Below, one piece after another: positions 31,651 through 52,557 of a DNA stretch of 61,639 nt (positions are counted from its first letter, which is position 1; each line of letters opens with the position of its first letter). The stretch covers positions 1 through 61,639 of IMG/VR virus record IMGVR_UViG_3300045141_000205, one strand, 5' to 3'. The notes below the pieces were generated by a model. That model did not search any database. It was not told the origin of the DNA and saw only the letters and a list, made by a program, of their open reading frames with translations. Origin of the DNA: a virus. A program made the position numbers and the translations under genes.

Positions 31651-32637
31651 TCAGGACTTGGTGATCGTCGCGATCCCCCGGGGGTTCAGGATGGCCATGG
31701 TCACCATCTCGTCGAACACCCAGCCCTTCCAGAAGGCCTCGACCATGTGGTTCTCCTCGACATCGAGGGAGTAGAGCACCGGGAAGACGCCGAGGAAGTT
31801 CGGCTCGGGGGTGAGGAAGACCTTGCCCTGCGGGACGATGATGCTCCGCTGGATCTGGAACTCACCGAACGAGGTGATGGTCTCGCCCGCGACCACACGG
31901 TCCTTGAAGGCCCAGCCGGTCTGGTTGATGTCCCAGCGGTACAGGTCGCGGAAGTCGAACGGGTTGATCAGGATGCGGGCCGACTGGAGTTCGTGCAGGT
32001 CGGTCATCGCCACGGCGCTGTAGAGGGCGCCCGGCGTGAGGTAGCCCGAGGCCTCCAGGATGTCGTGGTTGGGAGTGACGACGTGGTCTGGCCGGGTGGA
32101 GTAGTCGGTGGCCGCCGCCTGGAGGATCACCAGGAGCCGCGAGTCCTCCTGCTTGAGGATCGCCTGCTTGGTCTCGTCCTGAGCCTGCTCGACCGCGTTG
32201 ATCCGGAGGTAGAACAGGTCCTCCTTGCGGATCGCCGGACGCGAGGCGATGCGGAAGAACCGCACCGGGACGCGCTTGCCCTCGAACGGGGTCACGCGGA
32301 CCTCGCCCTCGGTGCCGGACATGATGTAGGCCTGGCCGAGGTCGTCCCACACGTCGTACTCGACCGGGGTGCCCGGGGTCACCGGGTCCTCGACGAGCAC
32401 GTTGCGCGTGATGCCCTGGTAGCGCAGTTTGAGTTGGATCGGGCCGACCATGCCGACGCCGAGCCGCTTGATGCCGTTCACCTCGTCCTGGAGGACGAGC
32501 GCCATCTTGCGGACCTTGGCCTCGTGGGTCAGGGTCGACCCCTTCTCGCGGCGCTCGATGATCGAGGCCACGTAGTCATCGGACTTCTTGGCGATCCGGC
32601 CACGGAGAGCCCCGCCCGCCAGTGTCATCTGCGACAT
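31651..32637 (-). CDS. Major capsid protein
   Basis: The start chosen is the ATG after AGGAG (MSQMTLAGGALRGRIAKKSD), giving 328 aa; the longer frame upstream is a shadow of the decoration gene. A helical N-terminus, an extended stretch with GPIQLKLRYQGITRNVLVED, and a C-terminal domain (ILINPFDFRDLYRWDINQTG ... VFLTPEPNFLGVFPVLYSLD) fit the HK97-fold order of N-arm, E-loop, P-domain and A-domain, though I cannot place each by homology. It lies directly after the decoration gene and downstream of the candidate scaffold and protease, and is followed by a strong hairpin. The sequence pattern and context make this the best capsid candidate. Confidence 0.9.
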   Translation of the reverse strand: MSQMTLAGGALRGRIAKKSDDYVASIIERREKGSTLTHEAKVRKMALVLQDEVNGIKRLGVGMVGPIQLKLRYQGITRNVLVEDPVTPGTPVEYDVWDDLGQAYIMSGTEGEVRVTPFEGKRVPVRFFRIASRPAIRKEDLFYLRINAVEQAQDETKQAILKQEDSRLLVILQAAATDYSTRPDHVVTPNHDILEASGYLTPGALYSAVAMTDLHELQSARILINPFDFRDLYRWDINQTGWAFKDRVVAGETITSFGEFQIQRSIIVPQGKVFLTPEPNFLGVFPVLYSLDVEENHMVEAFWKGWVFDEMVTMAILNPRGIATITKS

Positions 32638-34845: not shown

Positions 34846-37443
34846 TCAACGAGCCATCGCTCCTGGCTGCATCTGCTCGGCCTGCTCGATCTCCCCCGGC
34901 GTCATCAGCGTCGCCTTCTGGCAGTTGGGGCAGATGTCGCCCTCCAGCATCCCGTCCCCGGCGTCGGCAGGAGCAGCGGCGTTGCCCGGCGTCGAGGTCG
35001 GGCTGGCCGCACCGGCCTCGAACCCACAGGCCGGGCAGAACAGGTCGGCCACGGAGTCACCGGGAGTACCGGGCAGGCCACCGCCCTCCTCGTCCTCGGT
35101 CTCCTCCTCCAGGCCGTCGACCTGCTCACCGGGCTCCGCAGGCGACTCGGGCTCGGGGGCGTTGGGTCCCTTGGTGAACGGCTCCCCGCCCTGGTTGATG
35201 TGCTGGGTGGCCGCCTCCGGGTCCTCGGGGCCGCCGACCACATCGCCGTCCTCGTCGACCTCGTCCTCGTCGACCGGCTCGCCGACATCTCCGAGGCCCC
35301 GGACCTCGCCCTCCACGACGCCATCCTCGCCCTCCTCGTCGGTGGGCTCATCGGCCTCCTCGCCCTCGGCACCGGGCGCCACGTCACCGTCCTCGTCCAC
35401 CTCGGACTCATCGACCGGGGGCAGGTTGGCGCCGACGTTGGGGTTCTGGTCGTTGGGATCGCCGGAGGCCGGGTCGGCCCGCAGGTCCAGCAACTTGGCG
35501 GCGTCCAGGTCCGGGTCCCGGAACATCTTGGGCGGGGTGACGAACCCGCACACCTGGCACTGGTCGCCGTCGAAGGCGTCGTTCTCCCCGCACACCGGGC
35601 AGGCGTCCTCGCGCAGCGTGTCCACGTTCACCGGGGCCTTCACCTCTCCGTAGGCCAGCACCTGGAGCCCGGCGATGTAGCGACGGGTCAGGGTCTCCAG
35701 GCTGGCCAGGCCACCGTGCCGGGTGATCCGGGCGTTGCGGACCAGTCCCTCGCCGCCGCAGTTCTTGCAGGGCTCCCGGTGCTCCCAGGGGTTCACGCCC
35801 GGGGGCACCGGCCCTGTGGCACGCACATCGCCTCTGCCCTTGCAGGACGGGCAGGGCACGTTCGTCGCGGGCTTGGTGGTGCGATCCAGCCAGTCGTCGA
35901 ACGACTCGCCCTCGCCGGGCATGTCGTGGTGGCTGAACCCCATCCCCGCGCTGTCGCCCCAGGAGTCTGCCCCAGCCGGACGCCGGTTCTCCTGCTCCAA
36001 CTGGCGGCTGATCTCCTCGTGGGTGGACTGCTGCTCGTGCATCGGGGTCGGCGGCTCGTACGGGTGCTGCTGACCGAAGGGCTCGCCTCGGAAGTACAGG
36101 CCGTTGGCCCCGCTGTAATCGGTCCCGGTGTCGTAGTAGTTCCGGCTCGGACGGGAGCGCGGAACGCCCTGGGGGTGCTCGGGGTTGAAGCCACGGGCCT
36201 GCGGGGGAGCAGCCGTGGTGCCGCTGTGCTCGACGGCGTTGTCGTGGACCTCGCCGGAGTGGTGGTTGATCGTGAAGCCGTCCTCATAGGGGTGCAGCAC
36301 GGTGTCGGTGTGCAGCCCGTACTTGCCTCGGGTGGGCTCGGTCTCCCGACTCCACCCCTCCTGGCCCCAGTGGTGCTCGGGGTAGATCGAGCCACCCGAA
36401 GGGTTGTGGGCGATCACCCGCTCCGGGGCGCCCGCAGCCTTGGACGGGTTCCGCATCAACTTCATGTTGGACGGCAGGAAGGCGTTGATCCGGGACCGGG
36501 TGGTCGAGGAGTCCCAGCCGCCCGTGTCCACCGTGATGTCGCCGTTGTCGCGGAACCCCATGATGTTGGTGTCGTGGTGCCGGACGAAGGTCTGGCCCTG
36601 GTCGTCCTTGTGCATCCAGGTGTTGTTGGCGATCGGCACATGGCCCGAGCGGCCCTTGTAGGTGCGGTACTTCCTCTGTGCCGCATCGGGGTCGATGGGT
36701 CGAGCCGACGCCTTCCAGATGTGGTCCAGCACGTCCAGCATCGCGGTGCGCTGCATGAGCCCTCCTCGCTTCTGCTGCACCAACTTCTGGCGCTGCCTGT
36801 GCCTGGTCTTGCGGCCACCCCCGGCCTGCTCGCATGCAGGGCAGACCCCAGTCTCCCCTGGGCCGAGCCGGGCGCCGCAGTTGCTGCACGATCCCGCCTG
36901 GTTGAGCGACAGGTCCAGCGGCGGCAGGTCGGTGAGCCGACGCATCTCCGCATCGCTGATGGCCCTGCGCCTCATGGAGGCCTCCTTGCGGCCAAGTTGC
37001 AGGTCGTGGCCGCAGTCGTCGCAGGAGTCCTCGGGCATCAGTTTGCCGGTGGTCAGCGGGTAGTAGGGCTCCATCTGGTGCCCAGCCGAACGCCGGTCCT
37101 CCGCGCACGAGGGACACAGGGTGGTGTCCTTGCCCGGCCCGAAGTTGTCCTTGGTCCAGCCGACCACCTCGGGGTGGTCCTTGTAGTGCTCGTACTCGGT
37201 GGGCTCCTCGACCCCGGAGACCGCCGTGTTGAACTCGTGCTCGGGGTGCTCGCAGTTGTCATCGGACCTTGCCCAGTGCCGGGCCGCCTGCTGGGGGTCC
37301 TTGCCCATCTGGTGGGCGCAGGCGTCACAGAAGACCCGGCTCCCGGTGATGAACCCGCTCCTGCCGGACTCGTTGTACTGCCGGAGCCGGTGCCCGTCCT
37401 GGTACTCGTCGCCGGGCTTGGTGCCCTGGGTGCGCTCGCTCAT
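34846..37443 (-). CDS. 865-aa multi-zinc-ribbon head-region protein
   Basis: The start chosen is the ATG sharing its A with the protease stop (TGATG), giving 865 aa (MSERTQGTKPGDEYQDGHRL). Zinc-binding pairs are spread along it: CDAC near 40, CPSC near 110, CDDC near 142, CSNCGARLGPGETGVCPAC near 185-205, CPVC/CQVC near 620, CPAC/CPNC near the end. A DnaJ-like pair, CPSCKGRG then CKNCGGEG, lies near 530-562. A beta-rich segment near 275-330 (QGQTFVRHHDTNIMGFRDNG ... ITVDTGGWDSSTTRSRINAF) resembles a module seen in other phage proteins. Residues about 660-790 are very acidic. I do not recognise the whole protein. It is translationally coupled to the protease. Confidence 0.8.
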   Translation of the reverse strand: MSERTQGTKPGDEYQDGHRLRQYNESGRSGFITGSRVFCDACAHQMGKDPQQAARHWARSDDNCEHPEHEFNTAVSGVEEPTEYEHYKDHPEVVGWTKDNFGPGKDTTLCPSCAEDRRSAGHQMEPYYPLTTGKLMPEDSCDDCGHDLQLGRKEASMRRRAISDAEMRRLTDLPPLDLSLNQAGSCSNCGARLGPGETGVCPACEQAGGGRKTRHRQRQKLVQQKRGGLMQRTAMLDVLDHIWKASARPIDPDAAQRKYRTYKGRSGHVPIANNTWMHKDDQGQTFVRHHDTNIMGFRDNGDITVDTGGWDSSTTRSRINAFLPSNMKLMRNPSKAAGAPERVIAHNPSGGSIYPEHHWGQEGWSRETEPTRGKYGLHTDTVLHPYEDGFTINHHSGEVHDNAVEHSGTTAAPPQARGFNPEHPQGVPRSRPSRNYYDTGTDYSGANGLYFRGEPFGQQHPYEPPTPMHEQQSTHEEISRQLEQENRRPAGADSWGDSAGMGFSHHDMPGEGESFDDWLDRTTKPATNVPCPSCKGRGDVRATGPVPPGVNPWEHREPCKNCGGEGLVRNARITRHGGLASLETLTRRYIAGLQVLAYGEVKAPVNVDTLREDACPVCGENDAFDGDQCQVCGFVTPPKMFRDPDLDAAKLLDLRADPASGDPNDQNPNVGANLPPVDESEVDEDGDVAPGAEGEEADEPTDEEGEDGVVEGEVRGLGDVGEPVDEDEVDEDGDVVGGPEDPEAATQHINQGGEPFTKGPNAPEPESPAEPGEQVDGLEEETEDEEGGGLPGTPGDSVADLFCPACGFEAGAASPTSTPGNAAAPADAGDGMLEGDICPNCQKATLMTPGEIEQAEQMQPGAMAR

Positions 37444-40400
37444 CAGTCCTCCTCGGCGAAGTACCGGACCAGGGTCGAGGTGAACCCGTGCCGCTCGCCG
37501 TACGACGGCTTGTCCAGGGGATGGTTGAAGTCGTCGTAGGCATCGCCGTTGTCCCGCACCCAGCGGTGGAACTGCTGCTCGAACCGGCGCTGGGACCAGC
37601 CGTGGGGGATGCCCGGGGAGGCGTCGCTCATGGTGCCCTTGCTCTGGTCGAAGCCGGAGATGCCGGGAGAGTCCACCGGGGCGTCGCCCTGGTAGATGTG
37701 GATGCGGGAGCCCCCGGTCCACTCGGCCCGGTAACCGGACGGGTGCTCGGCGTAGAACCGCTTGGGGCCAGCAGCCAGCCGCACACCCTCGCGCCGGATG
37801 TAGCCCTTGCCGTCGCACTTCGCGCAGGAGGTGTGCCCGGGCTCGCCGTCGCAATCAGGGCAGACATCCTCATCGGCGCTCTTCAAGAGGTGCCGCATCA
37901 TCTTGTGCGCCTTCTGCTCGGAGGCCATGTCCGAGGGCACCCGGGCCAGGTCGTCGCGGATGTCCTGCTGCTCGGCCATCTGGCCGTACAGGTCGGCATG
38001 GTTCTCGGCGTGCTTGTCGACCGCAGCCTGGGCGTTGTAGACCTGGCTCATCACATGGTCGGGGATGGAGCGGGCGGGCGCTCCCCAGGCGTTGGGGACG
38101 AACCGGTTGTTCTTGGCCTCGTAGTCCCAACCGCCACGGGGACGGCCTCCGGGGTTGCCCGGGTGCGGCGGGCTCATCTGGTCAGCGTGGTAGAGCGTCA
38201 CCGACTGGCTGGGCTTGGCTCCGTACTGCTCGCGGAGGCTGCGATCCGGCATGTTGTCGTGGATGTGCACCTCCCACCGCTTCGTCTTCGGGGCTCGCCA
38301 GAACAGGCTCGGCTCGTCCATCGAGTCACCGATCCAGGTGCCTTCCTTCCGGACGGCGGTGGTCTCGCCACGGCGCCAGACGTGCACCTGCTCACCCACG
38401 TCGTGGTGGCGGATGCCGGGGGCCTTGGAGCCCCGCTGCCGCCAGGCCAGGGTCACCTGGTCGCCCCGGGTCATGGTCTTGTGCACCCGGGTCTTGCCGG
38501 AGATGTCCAGGAAGTCTCCCTCCCCGACCTCCTCGGCAGGGACGGTGTGCCGGACCAGGCCCTTGCCGGAGTTGTCGCCGACTGCGGAGTACTTGGTGGG
38601 CTGGTCGTTGGGGAAGGCGCCGTGCCACTTGTTCACCTCGTCGCCGTCGTAGTCATGACCCCAGCGGGCGTGGGTGAACCCCTGGTTGTGCAGGTCGATC
38701 AGAGCCCGCACCCGGGGCTCGTAGACCTGAGCCATGCCCGCAGGGCTGTAGATGCTCTTGGGATCGGTGTCGCCGTTGCCTTCTGCGGCCCGGGCCGCGT
38801 AGTCGCCGATCGCCTTCTCGATGGGCTGCACGCCGGTCGAGGGGTGCACCGGCTGGAAGCGACCCTTGCCGTCCCAGTAGGTGTCCCGCGACTGGACATG
38901 GGTGTGCCCCTGATCGCGGAGAGCCTGCAACTCCGTACGGGCCTGCTCCCGGTCAGCCTCCGAGTGACCGACCATCTTCTTCGCCCCGTCGTCCCAGTGC
39001 TGGAGCATCAGGGCGATCGGCTCGGTGTTGCTCGCCGTCGCCTGGAGGCTGGAGTACTTGGTCGGCCCCTGGTGCTTCTGGTCCAGCAGCCACCCGGCCT
39101 CGGGCTCGGTCTCGTGGAAGTGCCTGCCGATCTCCCGGCCCAGGTCCTTCTCCTCGGTGGGCTGGAGGTCGTGTTTCATCCAGCCCGGCATCCCGACGCC
39201 CTGCTCGTACATGTGCTGGGGGTGCTCGGTGCAGTCGTAGTTGTTGCAGTCCCAGGCGCCGTGCCCGTCGTAGGGCTGCTTCTTCGGCTTGCCCCAGGCG
39301 TCCAGGCCCAGGGACTCGTTCTTGTCGAAGTGCTCGCGCCAGGTGTGCGGCTCCGGGTACCGGTGGCAGTTGTCGCACGGATCGTCTAGCCAGGAGTCGT
39401 CCTCCTCGGCTGCGGTCTTCCGGACGTTGAGGCTCTGGATCGGGGAGGGGTGGAACGGCCCGGTCTGCTCGGGCATCCCCCCGGCCCGCTCGGGGGCGAA
39501 GTTGGGGTTGAAGCCGTGCAGGTGCTCGATCAGGGCCGTCATCCCCGGCCCGGACTCCGACCAGTCATTCGTGGTCAGCGGGTCGGTCGGCGGATGGTTG
39601 TGCCCGTGCAGCCCAGCCGGGTTGGCGTGGTCACCGTCGTGGAGGTGCAGGTGTAGGTGCCGCACGCTGTCCTGAATCTCGCCGATGTTGGTGGGCTTCT
39701 CGATGCCGAGGTCCCGGCAGTGCCTGGCCACGTCCTTGGTGTCGATCCCGTGGTCGACCCGCATGTGGTCCACTAGGTCCCAGCCCATCTGCTTGCGGGT
39801 GTTGTCGCGCTTCTTCTGCTTCCAGATCTCCTGCCAGTGCTGGGGCGTGCCCCCGTCGTTGGGACCGCCGACCGCCGTCTTCCGGACAGCGGTGTGGAAG
39901 TGGGACTCGTCCAGGAACTGCCCCGGCATCCCCTCGTCGGAGTCGCGGTGGTCGTGCAGGTGCAGGTCCCGTATCTCCTTGTGGGTCAGCGGACGGTCCT
40001 CGTCGGTCGCCGGTCCCAGGGCCGGGTGGTCCTCGTCGTGGGAGTTGCGCCAGAGGTCGCCGTCGTCGAGGTAGTGGGACTCGATCAGGTGCTGCTTGAG
40101 GTCCACCGGGTCCGAGAGGTTCACCACCCGCTTCTCGGCGTGCTGCTGCATCTCTGAGGCCCTCTGAGCGGCATCCCCGATGGCCCGGTAGACATCCATC
40201 GAGCGCTGGTCGAGATGGATGTGGTCGTTGGGCTTCCCGCACTCCGGGCACGGCTCGTCCTCGAAGGCAGCCATCTTCTTGAGGTGGGAGTCCCAGGTCT
40301 TCGCGAAGCCGGGATGCAGGTCGAGGCCCTTCATCTCCTCCGGCGTGTACCACTGGGTACCGCCCTCACCGGTCTCATGAGCGGCGTCCTCGCCACCCGA

Positions 40401-43400
40401 GGAGCCCCACCGGGACGGGGAGTCCATGACCACGGTATGGAACGCCCAGCCGCCATGCTCGTCGGAGTGGGTGTGGACGTGGGTCATCCCGTGCGGGACC
40501 CCACCGAGTTCCTCGTGGGACTCCCGGATGGCACCGTCCTCGGGGGACTCGTCGTGGTGCAGCGCACCCCCGGGGATGCCCCAGGTGTCGCCCTGGTCCA
40601 CCCAGGGCGCCCGGTGCTGGAGCAGGTACCGCCTGGTGCCGTCGTCCCCGGTGTGCCGGATCAGCAGCCCGGCAGCCCCAGCCGAGCCCCAGTGCCGGTG
40701 CCCCTGGTCGCAGGTGGTCCACTCATCAGCGCTGGAGTGCCTCGGGTCGTCGTCGGCTCGGTGGCTCCCGGAGTTGAGGGACTGCTTGAGCGGGGTGACC
40801 GGACCGAACTCGCGGTTGAAGAACTCCTTGCCGCGCTGCTCGTAGAACCCCTTGGTGGGCTGGCCGATCTCGCTGGGCCGGGTGGTGGCGTGCAGGGCGA
40901 TCTCGTTGCCGCAGGTCTTGCACTTGGACTGCTCGCCCTCGTCGGGGAAGGACCGGGCCTCGTGGTTGTTCGGGTAGGTGTGCGGGCAGGCGTCGAGCCG
41001 GTCCAGGTCCCCGCCACCGGCGTACCGCTCCAGTTCGTCCCGCGTCCGCTTCTCGTGGGCGTGCTCGTCGTGGTCCCAGTCCAGGTCGTCCTCACGGAGA
41101 TCGGTGAGCCGGTTGGGGTGGGCATCGGTCCGGTCCGGGTGGAGGTAGTCCCTGGCGAAGGACTGCTCGTGGTTCCTGGGGGCGAACTGGAGCGTGCGCG
41201 GGTGGGAGAACTCCCCGGTGTCGTAGGGGCGGTGGAGCAGCATCGGTGACTTCCCCGTGCTGTAGCCGTGCGGGTCGCCCTCGTAGTCCCACCAGGAGGG
41301 GTCGCGGACCTCCACCCGGAGCGGGTCGTCGGGGTGGGAGTGGTCGTGCGGAGGCGGCAGGGCGTCACCGCGATGATGACCAGCCGGGCTCCTCAGGTCA
41401 CCACCGTGCTCATGCTCGTGAATCCGGTGCACCAGGTTGACCCGCTCGAAGGCACTACTGAGGTCCTTGGCCCTGCCGAGCAGGGAGTCACCCTCCGCAG
41501 CGTTGGCGCCGGGCTGCTTCTGGAGCCGGTCGATGGTGTCTTCGAGTTCGTCGTGGGAGTAGCCGTGGTGCTCGGTCAGGTGCCGACGCAGCATCCGGGT
41601 CCGCTCCCAGTTGTCGTCGGTCTGCTCGGGCACCGAGTAGTTCAGGTCGTCCATCCCAGCGAAGAACTGCATCAGGCGGGAGTACCTGGTCGGCCCCTGC
41701 GACTGCTGGCCCAGGAGCCAGTCGGCGTCCTCGCCCACCAGGCCCTTCATCTGCTCGGCCAGGTCGCCGGGGATCGGGTCGCTGCCGTACAGGGACTTGG
41801 GCGCCCGGTAGTGGGGCTTGCCCCCCTGGTTGCGCTGGAGGATCTCGTACCGCCCGGGGTCGTGAATCTCGTGGTAGGGGTCCCGACGGGTGTAGTCGCC
41901 ACAGGTCGGGCAGTTCTTGATCAGGCCATTGGTGGTCTGGAACAGGTGCGGGTGGTCGCAGGCCTCCCAGCCACAGCGCTCGCACTCGTCGGGGTCGTCG
42001 CCCACATGCGGGTGGTTCATGGGGTGCTCGGCACGATCGTCGCCCGACCACCTGTCCACGGAGTTCTTCTCGACGGCGAAGTGCTGGAGCAGGGAGTACT
42101 TGGTCGGACCGTTCTCGCCGTTCTCACGGTGGTTCTGGTCGAGCAGGAAGCCCAGGGGATGATCGGCCAGGGCATCCCTGACGGCCTTCTCGGCGTCCTG
42201 GTACTCGTCGCTGTACGGGTTCAGGTGAGCAGGGGGCGCCATCTCGTGCTCACCCTTGGTGTGCCAGCCATCCTCGAACCCGGTCTCCTGGCAGTGCGGG
42301 TGGTCGCACTCCTGGTCGGCCTCGTGCTGGGCCACGCACTCCGGGCAGGTCGCCTGGCTCGGGTCGGTGTGCACGCGGTACTGGGGACCTCTGCGGTTGC
42401 AGTACGTCGGGGTCTCGGGGTGCCCGGGGTGCGTCGGCAGATGCACCAGGCTGGGGTCGTCCCGGGGGTCGGCCTCATCGTCGAGCGTCGACTCCACCAC
42501 CCGCATCCGCACCCGCCGACGGTCATCGGCGATGTGGTCCTCGTGGCGCTCCTCGGCGGACTTCCCCTGAGCCCTGGCCTCGTCGTCGCGGCGCAGGATG
42601 TCCTGGGCCGAGCGCAGGTGATCGAAGGCGCCCCGGTGCTCCTCGCACAGGGGGTGCCCACCGCCACCGAGGTGCGTCGCCGGAGTCGCCTTGGGGTTCG
42701 GCGCCAGAATCCACTCCTCGGAAGACCGGTGGGACGGGTACTGGCAGTAATCCGGGCTCCCCTTGTCCATGAGGCCGCGAATGGTGGAGGGGTCCAGGGA
42801 GCCGTAGCCGCGAGCCTCGGAGTCCCACCGGGCCTTCTGCCGGGCCTCGTCCTCCTGGCGCTTCGGGCTGTGCCAGTAGGCCACCCGGTCGGGGTTGTGG
42901 TGGTTGAGGTTGGACCCCCAGCCACACTGGGCGCACGGTCCGTCCGGGTCACCCTCGTGGAGATGCGGCTCGGTGCCGGTCTTCTTCTCCACCGGCCTCG
43001 GCGTGAAGGGGATGACCTCGCCAGCGAAGTGCTGGAGCAGGGAGTACCTGCTCGGGCCGGTCGGGTTGGACCGCAGGAACCTCATCGCCTGCTGGTCCGG
43101 GTCGGCGTCCTCGTAGACCTGGTTCACCTGGTGGATCGTGGAGCCCGGCAGCGGGCTGTGGCAGTACCGGCACAGGCCCAGGGTCTCGGCGCTCTGCCAG
43201 GCCTCCGGGTCGGTCCCGTAGCCGCCCCGGTAGTCGTCCTGGTGCTCGCCGTAGCAGAAGTCCGAGTGGTACTCGTCGCGGCGCGGAGGGTGCGGGAACG
43301 GCGCCGTGGCTGCGGTCTTGACCGCTGCCTTGCCGAGCCCGGAGTGGTCATCCACACCTGTGAAGAAGGCTGTGGGATCAGCGGGCTCCTCGACCAGCAG

Positions 43401-44006
43401 GGAGTTCTCGAAGAACTTCAACCCGAAGCAGGTCTCCCGGATCAGGTGCTCCTCCTGGGCGCCGGTGGAGGCGTTCCGCTTGAGCACCTTCTTGCCCTTG
43501 AGCCTCGGGATGTGGTTGCAGTACTCGGCGGGGGTGGTGGCCTTGTTGCCACACATCGAGCACAGGCTGTAGGCCACGTCGCAGCCCATCGAGGTCCGGT
43601 CCACCCGGCCCGTCCGGATCGCCTCGGCCAACTTCGGGAACCGCAGCGCGTCGACCTCCATCAGCACCTCGCACCAGGTGTCCTTGGCGCCGTCGGCCAG
43701 CCGGTCCCGGTGCAGGGCGGCGTCGATCACCACCCCACGGGCTCGCTTGTGGTTGTCGTTGTTGTGGTTGACGAAGACCGGCTTGCCGATGAAGGTCCGG
43801 TAGGCCTGCTCGATCTCCTCGGCGGGGAACTCGTCGTAGTTGTCGTTGGTCCTGCTGGAGATCGCCCGGGACCGGACGTAGAGGTAGCCCTGCCGAGGGG
43901 TGAAGTCGAAGTGGTGCTTGTGGGCCAGGGCCTGGAGTTGGGCCGGGCTGGCGTCGGTCGGGACGAGCACGCTGGACGTGACCTTGACCGTCGCGAACTT
44001 GAGCAT
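37443..44006 (-). CDS. 2187-aa polyprotein-like prohead protease with embedded Nudix domain
   Basis: The ATG eight bases after GGAGG opens a 2187-aa frame. Residues 1-165 match the phage prohead protease pattern: PVFVNHNNDN with likely catalytic His81, and VDRTSMGCDV with likely Ser139, followed by a C-x2-C ... C-x2-H zinc element. At about 1110-1235 there is a Nudix domain with a complete Nudix box, G-x5-E-x7-R-E-x2-E-E-x-G, at about 1146-1168. Other parts hold many Cys/His pairs, a DnaJ-like zinc pair near 2047-2066, and five GPTKYS-type repeats. Typical prohead proteases are 200-500 aa, so this is exceptionally long. It is probably processed. Confidence 0.87.
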   Translation of the reverse strand: MLKFATVKVTSSVLVPTDASPAQLQALAHKHHFDFTPRQGYLYVRSRAISSRTNDNYDEFPAEEIEQAYRTFIGKPVFVNHNNDNHKRARGVVIDAALHRDRLADGAKDTWCEVLMEVDALRFPKLAEAIRTGRVDRTSMGCDVAYSLCSMCGNKATTPAEYCNHIPRLKGKKVLKRNASTGAQEEHLIRETCFGLKFFENSLLVEEPADPTAFFTGVDDHSGLGKAAVKTAATAPFPHPPRRDEYHSDFCYGEHQDDYRGGYGTDPEAWQSAETLGLCRYCHSPLPGSTIHQVNQVYEDADPDQQAMRFLRSNPTGPSRYSLLQHFAGEVIPFTPRPVEKKTGTEPHLHEGDPDGPCAQCGWGSNLNHHNPDRVAYWHSPKRQEDEARQKARWDSEARGYGSLDPSTIRGLMDKGSPDYCQYPSHRSSEEWILAPNPKATPATHLGGGGHPLCEEHRGAFDHLRSAQDILRRDDEARAQGKSAEERHEDHIADDRRRVRMRVVESTLDDEADPRDDPSLVHLPTHPGHPETPTYCNRRGPQYRVHTDPSQATCPECVAQHEADQECDHPHCQETGFEDGWHTKGEHEMAPPAHLNPYSDEYQDAEKAVRDALADHPLGFLLDQNHRENGENGPTKYSLLQHFAVEKNSVDRWSGDDRAEHPMNHPHVGDDPDECERCGWEACDHPHLFQTTNGLIKNCPTCGDYTRRDPYHEIHDPGRYEILQRNQGGKPHYRAPKSLYGSDPIPGDLAEQMKGLVGEDADWLLGQQSQGPTRYSRLMQFFAGMDDLNYSVPEQTDDNWERTRMLRRHLTEHHGYSHDELEDTIDRLQKQPGANAAEGDSLLGRAKDLSSAFERVNLVHRIHEHEHGGDLRSPAGHHRGDALPPPHDHSHPDDPLRVEVRDPSWWDYEGDPHGYSTGKSPMLLHRPYDTGEFSHPRTLQFAPRNHEQSFARDYLHPDRTDAHPNRLTDLREDDLDWDHDEHAHEKRTRDELERYAGGGDLDRLDACPHTYPNNHEARSFPDEGEQSKCKTCGNEIALHATTRPSEIGQPTKGFYEQRGKEFFNREFGPVTPLKQSLNSGSHRADDDPRHSSADEWTTCDQGHRHWGSAGAAGLLIRHTGDDGTRRYLLQHRAPWVDQGDTWGIPGGALHHDESPEDGAIRESHEELGGVPHGMTHVHTHSDEHGGWAFHTVVMDSPSRWGSSGGEDAAHETGEGGTQWYTPEEMKGLDLHPGFAKTWDSHLKKMAAFEDEPCPECGKPNDHIHLDQRSMDVYRAIGDAAQRASEMQQHAEKRVVNLSDPVDLKQHLIESHYLDDGDLWRNSHDEDHPALGPATDEDRPLTHKEIRDLHLHDHRDSDEGMPGQFLDESHFHTAVRKTAVGGPNDGGTPQHWQEIWKQKKRDNTRKQMGWDLVDHMRVDHGIDTKDVARHCRDLGIEKPTNIGEIQDSVRHLHLHLHDGDHANPAGLHGHNHPPTDPLTTNDWSESGPGMTALIEHLHGFNPNFAPERAGGMPEQTGPFHPSPIQSLNVRKTAAEEDDSWLDDPCDNCHRYPEPHTWREHFDKNESLGLDAWGKPKKQPYDGHGAWDCNNYDCTEHPQHMYEQGVGMPGWMKHDLQPTEEKDLGREIGRHFHETEPEAGWLLDQKHQGPTKYSSLQATASNTEPIALMLQHWDDGAKKMVGHSEADREQARTELQALRDQGHTHVQSRDTYWDGKGRFQPVHPSTGVQPIEKAIGDYAARAAEGNGDTDPKSIYSPAGMAQVYEPRVRALIDLHNQGFTHARWGHDYDGDEVNKWHGAFPNDQPTKYSAVGDNSGKGLVRHTVPAEEVGEGDFLDISGKTRVHKTMTRGDQVTLAWRQRGSKAPGIRHHDVGEQVHVWRRGETTAVRKEGTWIGDSMDEPSLFWRAPKTKRWEVHIHDNMPDRSLREQYGAKPSQSVTLYHADQMSPPHPGNPGGRPRGGWDYEAKNNRFVPNAWGAPARSIPDHVMSQVYNAQAAVDKHAENHADLYGQMAEQQDIRDDLARVPSDMASEQKAHKMMRHLLKSADEDVCPDCDGEPGHTSCAKCDGKGYIRREGVRLAAGPKRFYAEHPSGYRAEWTGGSRIHIYQGDAPVDSPGISGFDQSKGTMSDASPGIPHGWSQRRFEQQFHRWVRDNGDAYDDFNHPLDKPSYGERHGFTSTLVRYFAEED

Positions 44007-44017
44007 GCCGGTACCTC

Positions 44018-44053
44018 CACCCCTTCGGAGGCGTCAGCCTCCCAGGGACAGCA
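44018..44053 (-). repeat. 36-bp unit-start element, copy 4 (before protease gene)
   Basis: The coding strand reads TGCTGTC, 20 bases including CTGA, GAAGGGGTG. The following GGAGG is the ribosome binding site of the protease gene. A divergent plus-strand gene begins about 70 bases beyond. Confidence 0.85.
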
Positions 44054-45766: not shown

Positions 45767-46222
45767 CTAGGGGTCTGGGGTGACGCCCTTGCTCACGAAG
45801 GACCTCAGCACCATCGACAGGTCCTTGGTGGTCAGGGTGTCCCCGGCAGCCAGGCTGTCCAGAGCATCTTGCAGCGCTGAGTCATCGGTGGGCGGGGTGA
45901 CCACGACCTCCGTGGGTGGCGTGGTCGCTGGCATGCTCGGGTCCCTCGGCTCGGTGTCGTCCACGATCGCCTGGATCGCCTCGACCTCCGCCTCGGTGAA
46001 CTCGTCGGCGACATGGACGAACAACTCCATCGGGTTGTCCACGCTGGCCGGTGCGCTCGGGTCCGGCAGGACCCCATCCAGCAGCACGTCGCGCCCCAGG
46101 GCCTCCTCGATGTCTGTCTGCAACTGCCAGAACAGCAGCGGCTTGGTGAGGGTGAACGACTCGGTGGCGCCGTCGGTCAGGTCGGAGAAGGGCTCCGGGG
46201 GCTCAGGGTTCTGCTGGGTCAT
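45767..46222 (-). CDS. Acidic protein of unknown function after the SWIM protein
   Basis: The start chosen is the ATG overlapping the upstream TGA (GCATGACC), where AAGAAGG has better spacing than for an earlier ATG; this gives 151 aa. It opens MTQQNPEPPEPFSDLTDGAT and contains a helical segment (FWQLQTDIEEALGRDVLLDG), a disordered Pro/Thr stretch near 95-110 and a helical end. No motif is recognised. It is the last gene of the unit that starts at copy 3 of the element. Confidence 0.75.
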   Translation of the reverse strand: MTQQNPEPPEPFSDLTDGATESFTLTKPLLFWQLQTDIEEALGRDVLLDGVLPDPSAPASVDNPMELFVHVADEFTEAEVEAIQAIVDDTEPRDPSMPATTPPTEVVVTPPTDDSALQDALDSLAAGDTLTTKDLSMVLRSFVSKGVTPDP

Positions 46223-49200
46223 GCCATCCATCCTTCTTGGTCATCGTCGTCATCGCCTTGAAGCGCCTCAAGCGCCTCGTAGTGCGTCCCGGTGATCTCC
46301 AGCCGGTCCAGGTTGGCGGCCCGGACATCCTTGCCCTCGTTGATCAGTTCGGCCTGCTGAGCCGGGGTGAAGGTGGCCATCGCCGCCTTCTGGAGGAACT
46401 GCTGGGCCGCAGCAGCGATGTCGGCACTGTCGCCCTTGCCCGGCCCGTTGTCCAGGGCAGCCGCCCCAGCCGTGCGCTGGAACTCGGCCACGATGTCGGC
46501 CACCGACCCCGTGGACACGAACGACGGGTCCTCCGGCTCCAGGTCGTGCGGGTCGGTCTTCCAGTTGGAGTTGGGGGCCGCCGAGCCACCGGACTGGCCG
46601 GGGTCGGAGGGGACGGCGTACTCGACCCCAGTGGAGATCGCGGCCTCCTTGACGTCCGGCTCCGGGTCACCGGCGTACCCCGAGTAGGTGGTGTCGTCCT
46701 CGTCGTCGGCGCCGTAGGTCTCCGGCAGCGCGGGCTCCGGCTGGTCCTGGAGCACCGCCCCCGTCATCATCCCCGACTGCTGAGCCCGCACCGCGTCGCC
46801 CTCGGCCTTGTCCCGGTCGGTCCAGGCCTTCAACTTCTGGGCGAAGTTCTCGGCGGCGGTCGGCTCCTTCCCGACCACCTCGCCGGTGTTCTTGTTCACG
46901 ATGTCCCGGCGAGGGTCGGGATGACCGACCAAGGAGGGCGCCAGCGTCGGAGCGACCTGCTGGACCACCTGGGGGACGACCTGCTTGACCACGTTGGGGG
47001 TGACCCGCTTGACCACGTTGGGGACGACCTTGTGCAGCAGACCTGCGCCCGCGACGCCGACCTCGGCAGCGGCAGCGACCTCGGGGGCCGCCACCTCAGC
47101 GGCAGTCTCGGCGACAGCGGGGAGCGCCTTCTCGTCCAGCGCGGCCTCATGCTCCATCACCGGCTCGAACAGGGAGTCGTCGAGGGCACCCTCGTGCCTC
47201 AACTCCGGGCGCATCTCGAACAGGTCGGCCATGTCCTGGGGTGGCCCCTGGTACTCCCCGGGATGCTCGTCACGGATGTGCTCGGCCCGGTCCGGCATCG
47301 TGAAGAAGCCCTCGTGGTCGCAGTGCGGGCAGCCCAGGCCGGGGATCTCCCGGGCCGCCATCCGGTCGCCCAGGTCCTGGGGGTTCTGCTGGCCCCAGGA
47401 GTCGGGGTCGGCGGCGGTCAGGAAGCCAGCCTGGGCCGGGTTCTCCTGGCGCCGCTTCTCGGTCGGGCCAGCCGGGGAGATGCCGGGCACCGGGGCCGGG
47501 CCGGGCTCGCCGAACGGGGAGTTGACCGCACCCACCACGCTGAGCAGCCGGGCCACGTTCTCCGGGGTCTCACCGGCCTCCACCGCCAGCAGGGCGAAGG
47601 TCTGGAGGAAGGACCCCCGGTGCGGCATCCGGTCGCCGGTGTGCGACTCCTCGGCGGCCACCACGTCCTCCACGTCGTCCTGGGGCTCGACCAGGGCCGC
47701 GACCCGGTCCACACCGGTCGGCACGTCCAGCCGGGTGCCGTGGCCGAAGCCCCGCTCCATCGAGGTGGTCGGCGACTCGCCGGTGTTCAGCCAGCGCGGC
47801 ACCCCCTGGTGGGGCTTGACCTCGCGCCCGAACATCCCCTGGGACTGGGCCTCGAAGGTCAGCGCCAGCGCGTGGGAGCACATCCGACCGGCGAACCTGG
47901 AGAAGTCGTCGGGGGCGCCCCAGTGGTACTGCGCCCACTTGCAGCCGCAGTCCCACTGGGCGACCTTCTGGCTGCCCGGCGCCCGCATCAGCACCGACTC
48001 GTAGGTGCCGTGGTCGCCCTTGACGGTGGCGATGTAGTAGCCGTTCTGGGCGGTGGTGATGTGCACCCCGCCCTCGCTCCTGATCCGCTTGGCCTTGTTT
48101 CGCACGTCGTGCCAGGTGGCGGTGAGGTGGAAGGCCAGGGACGGGTCCAGGCTGGCCGCCTTGAGCATCGCCCAGCCGTACTCCAGGGCCGAGTACCTGG
48201 TCGGCCCGGTCGGGTTGGACTTGAGGAAGGCATGCTCAGCCGGGGTCCCGATGTTGTCGAGTTCCCGCAGCGGGCTGTGCGGCAGCGGCGACCGGCAGTA
48301 GCGGCACAGGCCTGCGGTGTCGGGGTCCCTGACCTCGTAGCGGGAGTCGCGCTCGGCGGGCTCGTCGTAGGGACCGGTCGTCTGGTTGAGCAGGGTGCCG
48401 TGCTCACCGTGCTCGGGCTCACCGACCTGGAAGGTGTGATGGCCGCCGACCCCGTGCACGATGTCGGCAGCGTGCCCGGACTGGCAGTGCTCACCGCAGT
48501 ACTTGTCCGGGTCGAGGGTGTCGAACACCTCGTCCTCGGTCTTGGGCTTGTTGGGGCAGGGTCCGTCGTTGCCCGCGTGGTAGCCGGTCTCGGCGCCCTT
48601 CCACTGCCCGCAGTTCTGGCAGTGCACCTGCCGCTCGGGCTCCTCGAACTGGTCCTCCCAGTCCTGGTTGTCGTCCTCGTCGTGCCAGTCCTCGACGTCC
48701 TCGTCGAGACCGGCGTTCTTGGCGCTCAGACGATGGGCCAGGTCGTCCATCCTCAGGCCCCGGTTGTGCATCTCGGCCAGCACTGCGGCCTGGCTGCCGG
48801 AGTCCTCGGTGTCCCGGAGCCGCTGCACCTCATCACCGAGTTCGTCGGTGCTCAGGTGCTCATAGCCGGTGCCCACCTGGTCCCGGGCGGCGTTCTTGAC
48901 GTTCTCCACGTCCTGGGGCTTGTGGTCACCCGGGTTGGTCACGATCGCGTTGGAGTCCTCCGGGGTGTTCCGGCAGGAGGCGCACTGGCCACCCCAGGTC
49001 AGGTGCCCGTTCTCGCAGAGCCCCGGGGCACCGCCAACCTCGGCCTCAACTGGATGGAGGGAGGCGGTGAGTCCCAGGGAGCCCTGCCGGTCGAACGGGT
49101 CGAGGCTGGTCTTCTTCCAGATGGGGTGGAAGCCCCCCTGGCCGGGCGGGCGCCGAGCAAGGTGGTTGATGGAGTCGACATCAGCCTCGTCCTGGTCGTG

Positions 49201-50004
49201 GGCGCTCTCCATGTGGTGGCCGGTGTCGATGCAGTCCAGGCACAGGCTCTCGGGCTTGGACTCATACCCACCCGACCGGTAGCGGTAGATGTCGGTCCGA
49301 GGGTTCTCGCAGGCGTCGCACTTGCCGACCGTCTCCTGGCAGGAGAACATCCCGTGGGCCGCGCACTGGATGCAGGGGCGTCCGGAGTCCATCGGGCCGA
49401 CCACGGCCTCGTGGCGGGGGCGGTAGTGCAGCACCGCGAAGGGGTCACCCTGGCTGTAATCGGGACTGAAAGCGTCCTCACCCGAGTGGTACGAATCACC
49501 CCACGGGTGGTCGTGAGGACCAGGGCAGTGGGGGTCGGACTCGGGGAAGTCGGTCTGACCGTTCGCGGCGTACCCGATGCCTGCCGGGGACCGAGCCCCA
49601 CACCCCTTGCAGATGTAGGCCATGCCACCCTCGGCGGCCTCGACCTGGAGGCTGGCGACCATGCCCATGGTGGAGTCCGGGTACTTCCCCGGGTCCGGGC
49701 GGTCACGGAGGATGTCAGCCAGTTCGGGGTAGTCCTTGGAGGCGGTGTTCTCGGTGGCGGTGTGGTCAGTCGCGGCCTTCAACTGTCCCGAGGTGTACAG
49801 GCCACCACCGAGCCCGTTGTGGAGCAGGACCTCGTACTCCTCGCTGCCCGCGAACGCACCGTCGTTGACACCGATCACCTTGCCCAGGAAGCCGTCGACC
49901 GTCATCACGGTCTGGCCCGGCTTGAAGTCCCAGTACTCCTCGGGGTTGACCCCAGCCGTCCGCACCGTCTCGTGACGGCGGGAGGTCCTGTTGCCCAGAC
50001 CCAT
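46219..50004 (-). CDS. 1261-aa head-region protein with SWIM-type and other zinc fingers
   Basis: The ATG after AGGAGGATCACC opens a 1261-aa frame directly after the portal gene. An N-terminal SH3-like segment (about 28-75, GQTVMTVDGFLGKVIGVNDG) precedes a Cys/His-rich region with CKGC, CIQC, CDAC, CLDC and CASC pairs (up to about 350). A GPTRYS repeat lies near 598. At about 683-708 there is C-x-C-x20-C-x-H, the SWIM zinc-finger pattern. A C2-H2-like element (CPHCDHEGF ... HIRDEH) lies near 895. A Val/Pro/Lys-rich repeat lies near 988-1025. The protein has no recognised whole-length family; a virion-internal role is inferred from position. Confidence 0.8.
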   Translation of the reverse strand: MGLGNRTSRRHETVRTAGVNPEEYWDFKPGQTVMTVDGFLGKVIGVNDGAFAGSEEYEVLLHNGLGGGLYTSGQLKAATDHTATENTASKDYPELADILRDRPDPGKYPDSTMGMVASLQVEAAEGGMAYICKGCGARSPAGIGYAANGQTDFPESDPHCPGPHDHPWGDSYHSGEDAFSPDYSQGDPFAVLHYRPRHEAVVGPMDSGRPCIQCAAHGMFSCQETVGKCDACENPRTDIYRYRSGGYESKPESLCLDCIDTGHHMESAHDQDEADVDSINHLARRPPGQGGFHPIWKKTSLDPFDRQGSLGLTASLHPVEAEVGGAPGLCENGHLTWGGQCASCRNTPEDSNAIVTNPGDHKPQDVENVKNAARDQVGTGYEHLSTDELGDEVQRLRDTEDSGSQAAVLAEMHNRGLRMDDLAHRLSAKNAGLDEDVEDWHDEDDNQDWEDQFEEPERQVHCQNCGQWKGAETGYHAGNDGPCPNKPKTEDEVFDTLDPDKYCGEHCQSGHAADIVHGVGGHHTFQVGEPEHGEHGTLLNQTTGPYDEPAERDSRYEVRDPDTAGLCRYCRSPLPHSPLRELDNIGTPAEHAFLKSNPTGPTRYSALEYGWAMLKAASLDPSLAFHLTATWHDVRNKAKRIRSEGGVHITTAQNGYYIATVKGDHGTYESVLMRAPGSQKVAQWDCGCKWAQYHWGAPDDFSRFAGRMCSHALALTFEAQSQGMFGREVKPHQGVPRWLNTGESPTTSMERGFGHGTRLDVPTGVDRVAALVEPQDDVEDVVAAEESHTGDRMPHRGSFLQTFALLAVEAGETPENVARLLSVVGAVNSPFGEPGPAPVPGISPAGPTEKRRQENPAQAGFLTAADPDSWGQQNPQDLGDRMAAREIPGLGCPHCDHEGFFTMPDRAEHIRDEHPGEYQGPPQDMADLFEMRPELRHEGALDDSLFEPVMEHEAALDEKALPAVAETAAEVAAPEVAAAAEVGVAGAGLLHKVVPNVVKRVTPNVVKQVVPQVVQQVAPTLAPSLVGHPDPRRDIVNKNTGEVVGKEPTAAENFAQKLKAWTDRDKAEGDAVRAQQSGMMTGAVLQDQPEPALPETYGADDEDDTTYSGYAGDPEPDVKEAAISTGVEYAVPSDPGQSGGSAAPNSNWKTDPHDLEPEDPSFVSTGSVADIVAEFQRTAGAAALDNGPGKGDSADIAAAAQQFLQKAAMATFTPAQQAELINEGKDVRAANLDRLEITGTHYEALEALQGDDDDDQEGWMA

Positions 50005-50026: not shown

Positions 50027-50062
50027 CACCCCTTCGCGGCGCTCAGGTGCCCGGCGACAGCA
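50027..50062 (-). repeat. 36-bp unit-start element, copy 3 (overlaps end of portal gene)
   Basis: The coding strand reads TGCTGTC, 20 bases, GAAGGGGTG. TGCTGTC lies in the last codons of the portal gene and the TGA of CTGAG is the portal stop. An AGGAGGATC ribosome binding site follows downstream. Confidence 0.85.
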
Positions 50063-52232
50063 CCTGGTCCTGCTGCTGGTCCGGCTGCTCCTCTTCCAGG
50101 GTGTCCAGGAGCACCGGCTCACCTCCCTGCCGGAAGGCGTGCCTGCGCATCCCGACGTGCCTGGGGCTGTCGAAGCCGGGCACGGTGGGACCGTCGTAGG
50201 TCCCGACATTCTCGTCCTGGGCGGTCCGGGTCATCGGCTCCGGGGCCGGGTTGTGCTCGTCGGTGATCTCCCGCATCCGGGTGGCCCGGCGCCACAGGCT
50301 GACCGCATCCAGGGCGGCGGCCTTGGGCATGTCCTTGCGCATCTCGTCGGACTCCTCGGGCCGGTCGGACTGGACCTGGGTCTCGGCGCCCTGGCCGTTG
50401 GGGTCGAACGGCTGCACCGGGATGGTGGGCACCCCGGGAGTCACCACACCGCCAGCCGTGGGGGCCGCGAAGTCGCCCTGGGTGGGCGCCAGGGTCGGGG
50501 TGGTGATGATCGGGTCGGCACCCATCAGCGGCACCCGGAGCCCCTGGGACTCCTGGGTCGGAATGTTGGCGGCCTTGGCCTCGAAGTCGGCCCGCAGATC
50601 ATCGGGGATCGGCAGACCCTTCTCCTTGAGCGCCTGGAAGATCTCCTTGCGGGTCTCCTGCTCCTTGACCGCCAGTTCCACCTGCTCGCCCTGGGACTGC
50701 TCCACCTCGTCCGCGAACTCCAGCGGCAGGTTGACCAGCCGGGTCTTCATCGAGACCGGGATACCCGCTGCCCGCAGCGACTCCAGGAACTGCCGCTCGG
50801 ACTCCTCGTCCTTGATGTTCATCGTCTTCATCTTGAGGTCCGGGATCAGCAGTTTCGGCTGCTCGACGACACGCTCCTCACCGGTCTCCTCGTCGATCTC
50901 CAGGATCTCCTCCATCTTCACGTAGCGCTTGCCGTTGCGCTCGTCGTAGTCGTAGTGCTCCTGGGCCTCGGCCACCACCAGGGCACGCTGCCGGTAGTGC
51001 CGCTTGACCAGGTTCTGGTAGGTGGTCAGCAACTGGCTGATCAGGTCGCGGTTCAGGGCGTCGGCGGCGTACGTCTGGCCCGAGGAGGCGCCGGTCAGCA
51101 TGGTCTTGGAGAGCCCGAAGGTCTGGAGGATGCGGTCCTCGATCCGCTCGAAGTCCGGGGTCATGTCGGGCATGTTCTCCCGCCCGAACACGGACTCCAT
51201 CTGGACACCGAAGTGGTGCACCATCACCCGGAAGTCGGCGCTCAGCGCCTCGTCCAGCGCCTCCTCGAAGTCGGCAAGATCGTCCTGGGTCGGAATCCAC
51301 GGGACGGTGGTGCCCAGGTCGGTCGCCGACGCTCCCAGTCGCGCCAGGATGAGCGGGGTGTAGAGCCGGTCTGCCACTGCGTCCATCGCCGCATTCAGCA
51401 TCTCCTCCTGCATCACCGGACGCAGCGAGCGCATCAGCAGGGGGACGCCTCGCTTGTTGAAGGTGTCGGCCTTGAACCGGTAGTGCCGCAGCAGGATGTT
51501 GGACACCGGCATCAGGGCGTCCTCGGTCGTGTAGTGGCTCAGTTCCGGGTAGGCCTGCATCAACTTCTCGTACTCCCAGGCCGGGGAGCGCTTGGTGATG
51601 ATCTCCCGCAGGGTCTCCGGCAACTTGATGAAGTACCGGGGCTCCTTGAGGAACGGGGACCTGACCACCTCCAGGTCGTCGGGGTTGAGCAGTTCGTCGT
51701 CGTCCCAGACGCCCAGGGACTCGTTGAACGACCCGAACGGCACCGCCTCGCCCACGGTCCAGTACTCGCGCCCGAAGTCGATCAGGAAGTCGCCGTACCC
51801 CAGGCCGTCGTCGTCGTCGAGGAAGTGGTCGGTGTAGAACTCCGTCAACTTTTCATCTTTGCAGGACATCTCCATGCCCAGCAGCGGGTACTTGGTGTAG
51901 ATGTCCACACATGACCCGATCAGCGGGTGCGACTGGTACAGCAGACGGCAGTAGGCCCGGACCTTCTTGAGTTCGTCGTGCTCGTACAGGTCGTAGGGGA
52001 GGTTGTTCTGCTTCCAGTAAAACAGCGGGTCCCGGGGCCGCCCGGTGGCGAAGGTGAGGTTGCCACCCCGACTGCCACCACCGGCAGCGTTGGTGTTGGC
52101 GGTCTTGCGGTTCACGGCGCGGTTGCGCCGCATCTCCTCGACCTCCGGGTTGTCCTCGGCCTTGGCCCTCTTCCGGAACGACCCGAGGCGCTTGATGACG
52201 GCCTCCTCGTAGCCGTCAGGCTGGTCAGCCAT
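50043..52232 (-). CDS. Portal protein
   Basis: A 729-aa protein starts by overlap with the preceding gene. The N-terminus is basic. The region 75-300 (PRDPLFYWKQNNLPYDLYEH ... HELKKVRAYC ... PLIGSCVDIYTKYPLLGMEM) and the central part (DALMPVSNILLRHYRFKADT ... KRGVPLLMRSLRPVMQEEML) match the pattern of large phage portal proteins: membership in a dodecameric ring at one capsid vertex through which DNA passes. LTGASSGQTYAADALNRDLI near 400 fits the portal stem/wing region. The C-terminal 180 residues are Pro/Gly-rich and disordered and may be cleaved or bind other head proteins. Confidence 0.93.
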   Translation of the reverse strand: MADQPDGYEEAVIKRLGSFRKRAKAEDNPEVEEMRRNRAVNRKTANTNAAGGGSRGGNLTFATGRPRDPLFYWKQNNLPYDLYEHDELKKVRAYCRLLYQSHPLIGSCVDIYTKYPLLGMEMSCKDEKLTEFYTDHFLDDDDGLGYGDFLIDFGREYWTVGEAVPFGSFNESLGVWDDDELLNPDDLEVVRSPFLKEPRYFIKLPETLREIITKRSPAWEYEKLMQAYPELSHYTTEDALMPVSNILLRHYRFKADTFNKRGVPLLMRSLRPVMQEEMLNAAMDAVADRLYTPLILARLGASATDLGTTVPWIPTQDDLADFEEALDEALSADFRVMVHHFGVQMESVFGRENMPDMTPDFERIEDRILQTFGLSKTMLTGASSGQTYAADALNRDLISQLLTTYQNLVKRHYRQRALVVAEAQEHYDYDERNGKRYVKMEEILEIDEETGEERVVEQPKLLIPDLKMKTMNIKDEESERQFLESLRAAGIPVSMKTRLVNLPLEFADEVEQSQGEQVELAVKEQETRKEIFQALKEKGLPIPDDLRADFEAKAANIPTQESQGLRVPLMGADPIITTPTLAPTQGDFAAPTAGGVVTPGVPTIPVQPFDPNGQGAETQVQSDRPEESDEMRKDMPKAAALDAVSLWRRATRMREITDEHNPAPEPMTRTAQDENVGTYDGPTVPGFDSPRHVGMRRHAFRQGGEPVLLDTLEEEQPDQQQDQVLSPGT

Positions 52233-52557
52233 GCTGGACCTCCTTCCGGTAGGTCCAGACCTTCATCCCCAGGTCCCGGATGCGGTTCCCGAACTCCCGG
52301 CGCACCTCCCACTCCAGGTCGCCCTCGGTGGCCACCATCAGTCGCACGAAGATGCGCAGGTTGGCCGCGCACACCCCGCACAGCCAGACCACGTCGCTCA
52401 GCGCCTCGGTGTTGTCCACCAGGTCCCGCAGGTCGACCTTGGTGCACACGAGCGGGGTCGGGGAGTGGAACTTGGAGCCCTCACAGGGCACGCCGAGGAC
52501 ACCACCTGCTCGGTCGGTGACACCGTGCTCCTCGATGGCCTCCAGGATCAGGCTCAT
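52225..52557 (-). CDS. Small Cys-containing protein upstream of the portal
   Basis: A 110-aa protein. It contains CEGSKFHSPTPLVCTKVDL, with one Cys pair, and WLCGVCAANLRIF, with a C-x2-C pair; together these could bind one zinc. The C-terminal half is helical and charged. Start and stop overlap both neighbours. It may be a small head protein; the family is not recognised. Confidence 0.75.
   Translation of the reverse strand: MSLILEAIEEHGVTDRAGGVLGVPCEGSKFHSPTPLVCTKVDLRDLVDNTEALSDVVWLCGVCAANLRIFVRLMVATEGDLEWEVRREFGNRIRDLGMKVWTYRKEVQHG

Follow-up and report, generated by a model that had tools for sequence, protein, structure and literature searches.

A protease-led giant protein with an internal Nudix hydrolase and recurrent candidate cut sites in the head gene block of a virus near Bixzunavirus

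Introduction

A 2022 survey (PMC9503650) mentions, in a single sentence, phage Nudix domains that are fused directly to the capsid-processing serine peptidase and may be packaged and injected. The same survey also reports Nudix fusions with MuF or portal proteins, and presumes that ADP-ribosyltransferases (ARTs) and Nudix proteins of myoviruses are packaged in the head, in some cases as fusions with that peptidase. Here we analyze a gene that joins the same partners, and for which the same packaging and injection can be proposed, in a 61.6-kb IMG/VR virus record (IMGVR_UViG_3300045141_000205, positions 1 to 61,639; this whole stretch of 61,639 nucleotides is hereafter the window). The gene, located at 37443..44006 on the minus strand, encodes a protease-led candidate precursor of 2187 amino acids (aa) with an internal Nudix hydrolase. 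In the accessible portion of the survey, most of the phage Nudix domains belong to NudE/NadM-like clades, and neither cut sites nor a modular precursor is described, whereas the Nudix domain of the window is RenU-like.

Polyvalent proteins, which are thought to be injected into the host (PMC5512222), are likewise comparable. As described by Iyer et al. (2017), these are, like the window protein and its relatives, large multi-domain proteins encoded in the head block, with ART, GNAT, ParB and Nudix-type domains and an embedded peptidase. The window protein combines at least two disparate domains in one polypeptide and is encoded together with head and packaging genes. However, the assemblin-like peptidase of polyvalent proteins, when present, is C-terminal (PMC5512222), whereas that of the window protein is N-terminal, as in all relatives seen, and is itself the head protease of the phage. 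Because of this N-terminal protease, the window protein is a variant of the polyvalent proteins and not a standard member.

The protease proteins of Bixzunavirus phages (LinStu gp97 and Tonenili gp249; phrog_2774) resemble the window protein in that an orthologous N-terminal protease, encoded before the major head protein, is followed by a long tail containing [KR]TA tripeptides. They are annotated as hypothetical; the tail of the LinStu protein contains an L5 gp82-like domain and no Nudix, and a zinc module that lies inside these proteins is encoded in the next gene in the window. Herpesvirus pUL26 shares with the window protein the protease fold, and its release-site linker behind the protease corresponds in position to a candidate site of the window protein, but pUL26 is devoid of enzyme cargo. 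T4 gp21 has the same fold as the window protease, but stands as a small protein by itself; it cuts after Glu, as do T4- and phiKZ-type head proteases, and herpes assemblins cut after Ala (Ala at P1).

In the literature searched, no account of the cut-site motif, the module shuffling or the clade-wide view presented below was found, and no papers on virion processing in Bxz1-like phages were found in the open literature. The novelty of this work lies in the cut code, the module shuffling and the breadth; the core idea of the fusion is already published (PMC9503650). We propose, with a probability of about 0.58, that the 2187-aa protein is a self-processing head precursor whose modules, including the Nudix hydrolase, are cut free, packaged and delivered to the host.

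Results and Discussion

A head maturation protease and a Nudix hydrolase in one polypeptide

The gene starts with an ATG at 44006, preceded by a GGAGG ribosome-binding site (44014..44018, minus strand), and terminates at 37445-37443 without an internal stop, the stop codon overlapping the start of the next gene (TGATG). The GC content of its three codon positions is 0.68/0.45/0.93. The initial annotation of this DNA, made from the sequence alone, read it as a single long open reading frame (ORF), and the uninterrupted frame, the third-position GC content, the ribosome-binding site and the coupled stop agree with that reading. It had also considered that a sequencing error might have merged several genes. 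An assembly or sequencing artefact of this kind is highly improbable and already practically refuted by the relatives. The window is a fragmentary metagenomic contig, and nothing more specific speaks for an artefact; against it stand the 2187 open codons with a third-position GC content of 0.93, the recurrence of the same modules, at 37-67% identity and in another arrangement, in two other IMG/VR contigs (L001 and L002), and the long protease proteins found both in independent contigs and in the cultured phages Tonenili (1236 aa), LinStu (1286 aa), Finch (989 aa) and Skog (1082 aa).

The head maturation protease domain comprises residues 1-215 (43362..44006, minus strand). Residues 25-215 match phrog_2774 (1.7e-61) and phrog_18299, 'head maturation protease' (1.3e-21). 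The catalytic His81 (VNH; codon 43764-43766) and Ser139 (TSMG; codon 43590-43592) are invariant in 27 sequences, and likewise in a set of 8 that includes cultured phages. Both residues had been named correctly in the initial annotation, along with the identity of the domain, but the extent given there, 165 residues, was too short. In an AlphaFold model of the protease (27 sequences; mean predicted local distance difference test score, pLDDT, 79.7), the ordered part of the chain reaches about residue 215, and residues 216-235 of the modelled stretch are disordered. Plain Foldseek with this model gave no match at E <= 0.001, and a profile search against PDB sequences detected no relative of the protease; T4 gp21 (5jbl) came from structural re-alignment alone, where it was the top match (Z 12.9 over 143 residues, 2.9 A), followed by herpesvirus assemblins (Z 5-7). 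The protease gene is located between those for the portal and the major head protein, and in every annotated relative examined it lies shortly before the latter. By catalytic residues, fold and gene location, the N-terminal domain is a prohead protease of the T4 gp21/assemblin type.

The RenU-like Nudix hydrolase module spans residues 1092-1247 (40266..40733, minus strand). The Pfam NUDIX profile detects it with an E-value of 1.5e-10 (41.7 bits versus a cut-off of 21.1), and the nearest solved structure is Mycobacterium smegmatis RenU (6uuf; E 1.9e-33 with a profile, 2e-22 with the single sequence). The Nudix match is full-length, and the structural model of the module aligns with 6uuf at Z 20.7 and 37% identity, the next best structure reaching Z 14.2; RenU, however, is a free cellular enzyme, whereas the window Nudix is part of a giant protein. 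The Nudix box (G-x5-E-x7-RE-x2-EE-x-G; residues 1147-1168, 40503..40568, minus strand) contains all the catalytic acids and the Arg, and every catalytic residue is kept in eleven relatives. Two positions that are bulky and hydrophobic in the textbook motif are Ser and Gly, so that the box, located initially at about 1146-1168, was slightly overstated as 'complete'. By profile score, fold and catalytic residues, the internal domain is a Nudix hydrolase. That a protease and a Nudix domain are joined in a single protein, as the initial annotation read it, is supported by the Pfam and PHROG matches, and the gene lies within the head block. RenU hydrolyses ADP-ribose, FAD and NADH; NAD+ is not hydrolysed (PMC4401782). 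Substrates of the ADP-ribose, NADH and FAD type are predicted for the phage enzyme from its similarity to RenU. A Nudix domain was also sought in the whole records of six cultured relatives, with no match.

A recurrent [KR]TA motif behind the protease and around modules

Side-by-side reading of the giant proteins revealed a recurrent tripeptide, [KR]TA. Among 33 head-block proteins from six lineages, taken from annotated coding sequences (crude ORF calls had left out large head genes of LinStu and Skog), no tripeptide is more over-represented than KTA, with 45 occurrences versus 6.8 expected from shuffles, and RTA ranks third (38 versus 10.2). In the 475 other ORFs, [KR]TA is near the background (97 versus 75.5 expected), whereas the Finch head block alone contains 24 copies, with 2.7 expected. 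The enrichment is specific to the order of the residues, amounting to 4.2-fold over shuffles versus 0.5-2.0-fold for permuted patterns.

The placement of the motif was analyzed in 62 non-redundant long members, out of 80 proteins kept from the 196 relatives detected in a protease-profile scan of IMG/VR. At most 80 aa behind the protease, [KR]TA is found in 32 of the 62 proteins (52%), compared to 13.7% of other 80-aa segments, and in 23 its distance from the conserved PADPTA end of the protease is 10-22 residues. The corresponding candidate release site in the window protein is AVKTA|ATAP (residues 230-232; 43311..43319, minus strand), within the disordered linker of the model (pLDDT about 33). 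The looser pattern [KR]xA (x being T, S or hydrophobic) occurs within 15 residues of 10 of the 14 Nudix modules, versus 1.9 expected, and none of 500 random placements reached 10; it is depleted inside these modules, and permuted patterns show no enrichment around them. [KR]TA also flanks DUF7178 in 9 of 41 cases (3.4 expected, P 0.004), P values in these tests being indicative because the sequences are related and hence not independent. In the window protein, the candidate site HLKKMA|AFE (40269..40280, minus strand) directly follows the Nudix module, and VRKTA|AEED (residues 1530-1532; 39411..39419, minus strand) opens a later module.

Several observations weigh against [KR]TA as a cut code and against retention of the cut products. 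To our knowledge, the gp21-type proteases studied to date cut after Glu. Exact KTA occurs at only three places in the window protein, whose other candidates (QHFA, QFFA, KKMA and QATA) are looser, and no clear cut site was found just before its Nudix module. RFS occupies the site of the major head protein in Skog, and KAA one conserved site in the window. A boundary test based on the ends of BLAST alignments was dropped as unspecific, since the control TA[KR] scored too, and was replaced with the domain-based test described above. The cleavage motif of the SPN3US protease is A-X-E, and in well-studied phages, the cleaved pieces usually exit the head (PMC10052503). Herpes assemblins free themselves by a cut located behind their protease domain (PMC4498786), the position of the candidate release site here. 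Release by self-cleavage, as suggested in the initial annotation, would be consistent with this strong and specific candidate motif, the support being indirect.

Under another reading, the protein would reach the host mostly intact, in the manner of classical polyvalent proteins, and [KR]TA or GPT[KR]YS would not mark a cut but act as a targeting motif that binds the capsid or core. Docking peptides would fit repeated short motifs as well, and polyvalent proteins, such as the N4 virion RNA polymerase, can be packaged whole (PMC5512222). Nevertheless, the chain is headed by an active-looking processing protease, and the motif is found just behind that protease in a disordered linker, around domains and near the N-terminus of the major head protein, which makes delivery in an uncut form improbable.

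Modules are exchanged among giant head proteins

The 2187-aa protein contains eleven CxxC pairs and five [GQ]P[TS][KR]YS repeats, confirming the zinc elements and repeated motifs noted initially, and several of its segments recur elsewhere. The module at residues 274-328, with the terminus GPSRYSLLQHFA|GE (43023..43187, minus strand), has, for residues 274-326, a homologous copy in the giant protein encoded at 46219-50004. The zinc module at 551-644, ending in GPTKYSLLQHFA|VE (42075..42356, minus strand), has a homolog in the protease protein of L002, and a repeat, GPTRYSRLMQFFA|GM, is located at about residues 767-783 (41658..41707, minus strand). The homolog of the His-rich module 1263-1379 (terminus VRKTA|VGG; 39870..40220, minus strand) precedes the Nudix module of L002 and likewise ends in a candidate site, SKTA|E. 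Module 1569-1653 plus GPTKYSSLQATA|S (39033..39302, minus strand) is found in the giant protein upstream of the L002 protease protein, and module 2078-2175 (37482..37775, minus strand) in the one downstream. L002 is an independent contig whose protease is 67% identical to that of the window; its 973-aa protease protein contains the counterparts of window residues 1-236, 551-644, 1263-1379 and 1092-1239 (Nudix), in that order. In L001 and L002, the window modules are arranged in another order and spread over three proteins. Similarly, a zinc module, VDTLRE..CPVCG, lies within the protease protein in Tonenili, LinStu, Skog, Finch and LE2-3, but in the window it belongs to the next, translationally coupled gene (34846..37443, minus strand; matching phrog_2774 residues 662-775), which also encodes an acidic low-complexity tail. 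Three divergent L..H[LM]...H repeats were observed in His-rich stretches of the 2187-aa protein, at residues 806, 1303 and 1411.

In nearly all the relatives kept, the protease is the N-terminal part of a protein of 460-3240 aa; two relatives encode a bare 220-aa protease with no tail. Among the 62 non-redundant long members, Pfam detects DUF7178 in 39 tails, Nudix in 5, GNAT in 4, and Arr ADP-ribosyltransferase, SprT and ParB in one each. The same fusion, which the initial annotation had proposed to seek in other phages, is accordingly found in these five relatives. The Nudix family of the window is also represented in other giant proteins, together with Arr, 2H/LigT phosphoesterase, ParB-like and portal domains. 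Several of these Nudix-bearing genes are located ~5-8 kb upstream of a homolog of window gene 57028-59295, which puts them at the upstream extremity of the head block in question. A tblastn search with residues 237-2187 against cultured phages yielded no match at 1e-3; therefore, at that sensitivity, cultured phages do not share the cargo modules.

The tail could instead be a scaffold or core of the kind known from herpesvirus pUL26 and phage P2 gpO, which shapes the prohead, is chopped by the protease at the repeated sites and is then expelled, with the Nudix domain either a passenger or active only in the producing cell. This is the strongest rival explanation. The order would be that of pUL26, with assemblin, release-site linker and scaffold (PMC4498786), long propeptides are cut multiple times in SPN3US (PMC10052503), the next gene encodes the acidic low-complexity tail, and a separate scaffold gene was not identified within the window. 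However, the enzyme active sites are intact and conserved, the tail content varies freely among relatives and includes many host-directed enzyme families, unlike a scaffold, and two relatives have a tail-less protease; we therefore consider a purely scaffolding role unlikely.

Several tails show further features. DUF7178 (VVxDRHALSVAxG motif; for example, in L002:18633-21065) is the commonest tail domain. The giant proteins L119:523-6081 and L127:6083-11377 each contain three Arr-type (rifampin ADP-ribosyltransferase-like) stretches plus a Nudix domain; the former adds a 2H phosphoesterase, which brings NAD/ADP-ribose and cyclic-phosphate enzymes together in one polypeptide. The protease proteins of LinStu (L004:14950-18810) and Skog (L009:14875-18123) embed the Pfam domain Phage_L5_gp82, named after gene 82 of phage L5, and that of Skog is annotated as a LysM-like endolysin. 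The head protease of Eggerthella phage LE2-3 (L010:9998-13111) holds an intein, supported by Pfam, which starts with C after VSMGLN, five residues from the catalytic Ser, and ends with VHN|C. The gene is annotated 'tRNA synthetase', to which Pfam gives no support. The LE2-3 protease should be inactive until the intein is spliced out.

Proposed processing and delivery

The identity of the protease and the Nudix hydrolase, the module exchange, and the enrichment and placement of the motif are established by computation. The course of cleavage, packaging, ejection and substrate use that we infer is the following. The N-terminal gp21/assemblin-type protease and its long tail would be incorporated into the prohead, where the activated protease would cut linkers after the Ala of [Lys/Arg]-Thr-Ala or of similar [KR/H]-x-Ala sequences, beginning ~15 residues past its own domain and continuing between the modules of the 2187-aa protein and of the neighbouring giant head proteins. 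Small modules would thereby be freed inside the head, among them a ~17-kDa RenU-like Nudix hydrolase, and at least the enzymes would remain there and enter the host together with the DNA. In the host, the Nudix hydrolase would most likely act on ADP-ribose-type dinucleotides (ADP-ribose, NADH, FAD), and might alter host NAD metabolism or blunt NAD/ADP-ribose-based defence. In the relatives, the tail domains represent enzymes directed at the host (GNAT, Arr ADP-ribosyltransferase, 2H phosphoesterase, ParB, SprT), which we count in favour of delivery. Packaging and delivery are plausible because of the nature and location of these enzymes and the published precedents (PMC9503650, PMC5512222).

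More tentatively, and at somewhat below even odds, an actinobacterial clade comprising the Bxz1-like phages and the Streptomyces phage-plasmid relatives may possess a capsid-internal polyprotein system, with a protease-led precursor, a uniform [KR]TA code and cassettes bounded by cut sites that shuffle among giant head proteins, which would represent a cargo-loading route in tailed DNA phages. The proposal offers a concrete, cheap test of enzyme loading into large phage heads, namely, the predicted N-termini after [KR]TA in cultured phages of M. smegmatis, Rhodococcus and Gordonia. If it is correct, hundreds of entries annotated as 'hypothetical', 'LysM', 'ParB' or 'tRNA synthetase' would be head proteases with delivered cargo, the cut code would allow module boundaries, and hence many injected enzymes, to be read from sequence, and a natural cut-and-load signal for packaging proteins in capsids would be at hand.

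The head gene block and its relatives

The portal protein (50043..52232, minus strand; phrog_2833, 8.2e-156) and the major head protein (31651..32637, minus strand; phrog_2522, 2.2e-102; N-terminus ...GALRGRIA|KKSDDY) place the window near the mycobacteriophages of the genus Bixzunavirus and phages Phrappuccino, Finch and Skog. Proteases closer to that of the window (62-64% identity) are encoded on 150-157-kb contigs of Streptomyces genomes and on a circular 'plasmid' of 154 kb from Streptomyces sp. RLB1-9, which has a full head block. An actinomycete, perhaps Streptomyces, is therefore the probable host of this virus. The plasmid (NZ_CP041653.1; head block at 119591-154158, L130) is probably a phage-plasmid, and the prohead protease protein it encodes is labelled a ParB partition protein.

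The second giant modular protein of the window (1261 aa; 46219..50004, minus strand), which shares a repeat with the 2187-aa protein, is a homolog of LinStu gp96, annotated as containing a LysM domain, and carries a conserved FQRTA|G site. Its residues 629-722 form a conserved SWIM-like zinc module (CxC...CxH) that all the relatives compared share, either in their second giant protein or in one nearby. A gene near that for the portal, 52554-52922, encodes a small histone-tail-like protein that is rich in Lys and Ala and contains KKTAA repeats. The short protein encoded at 30541-31155 matches tail-fibre PHROGs; it combines an N-terminus resembling a signal sequence with a collagen-like run of Gly-x-y.
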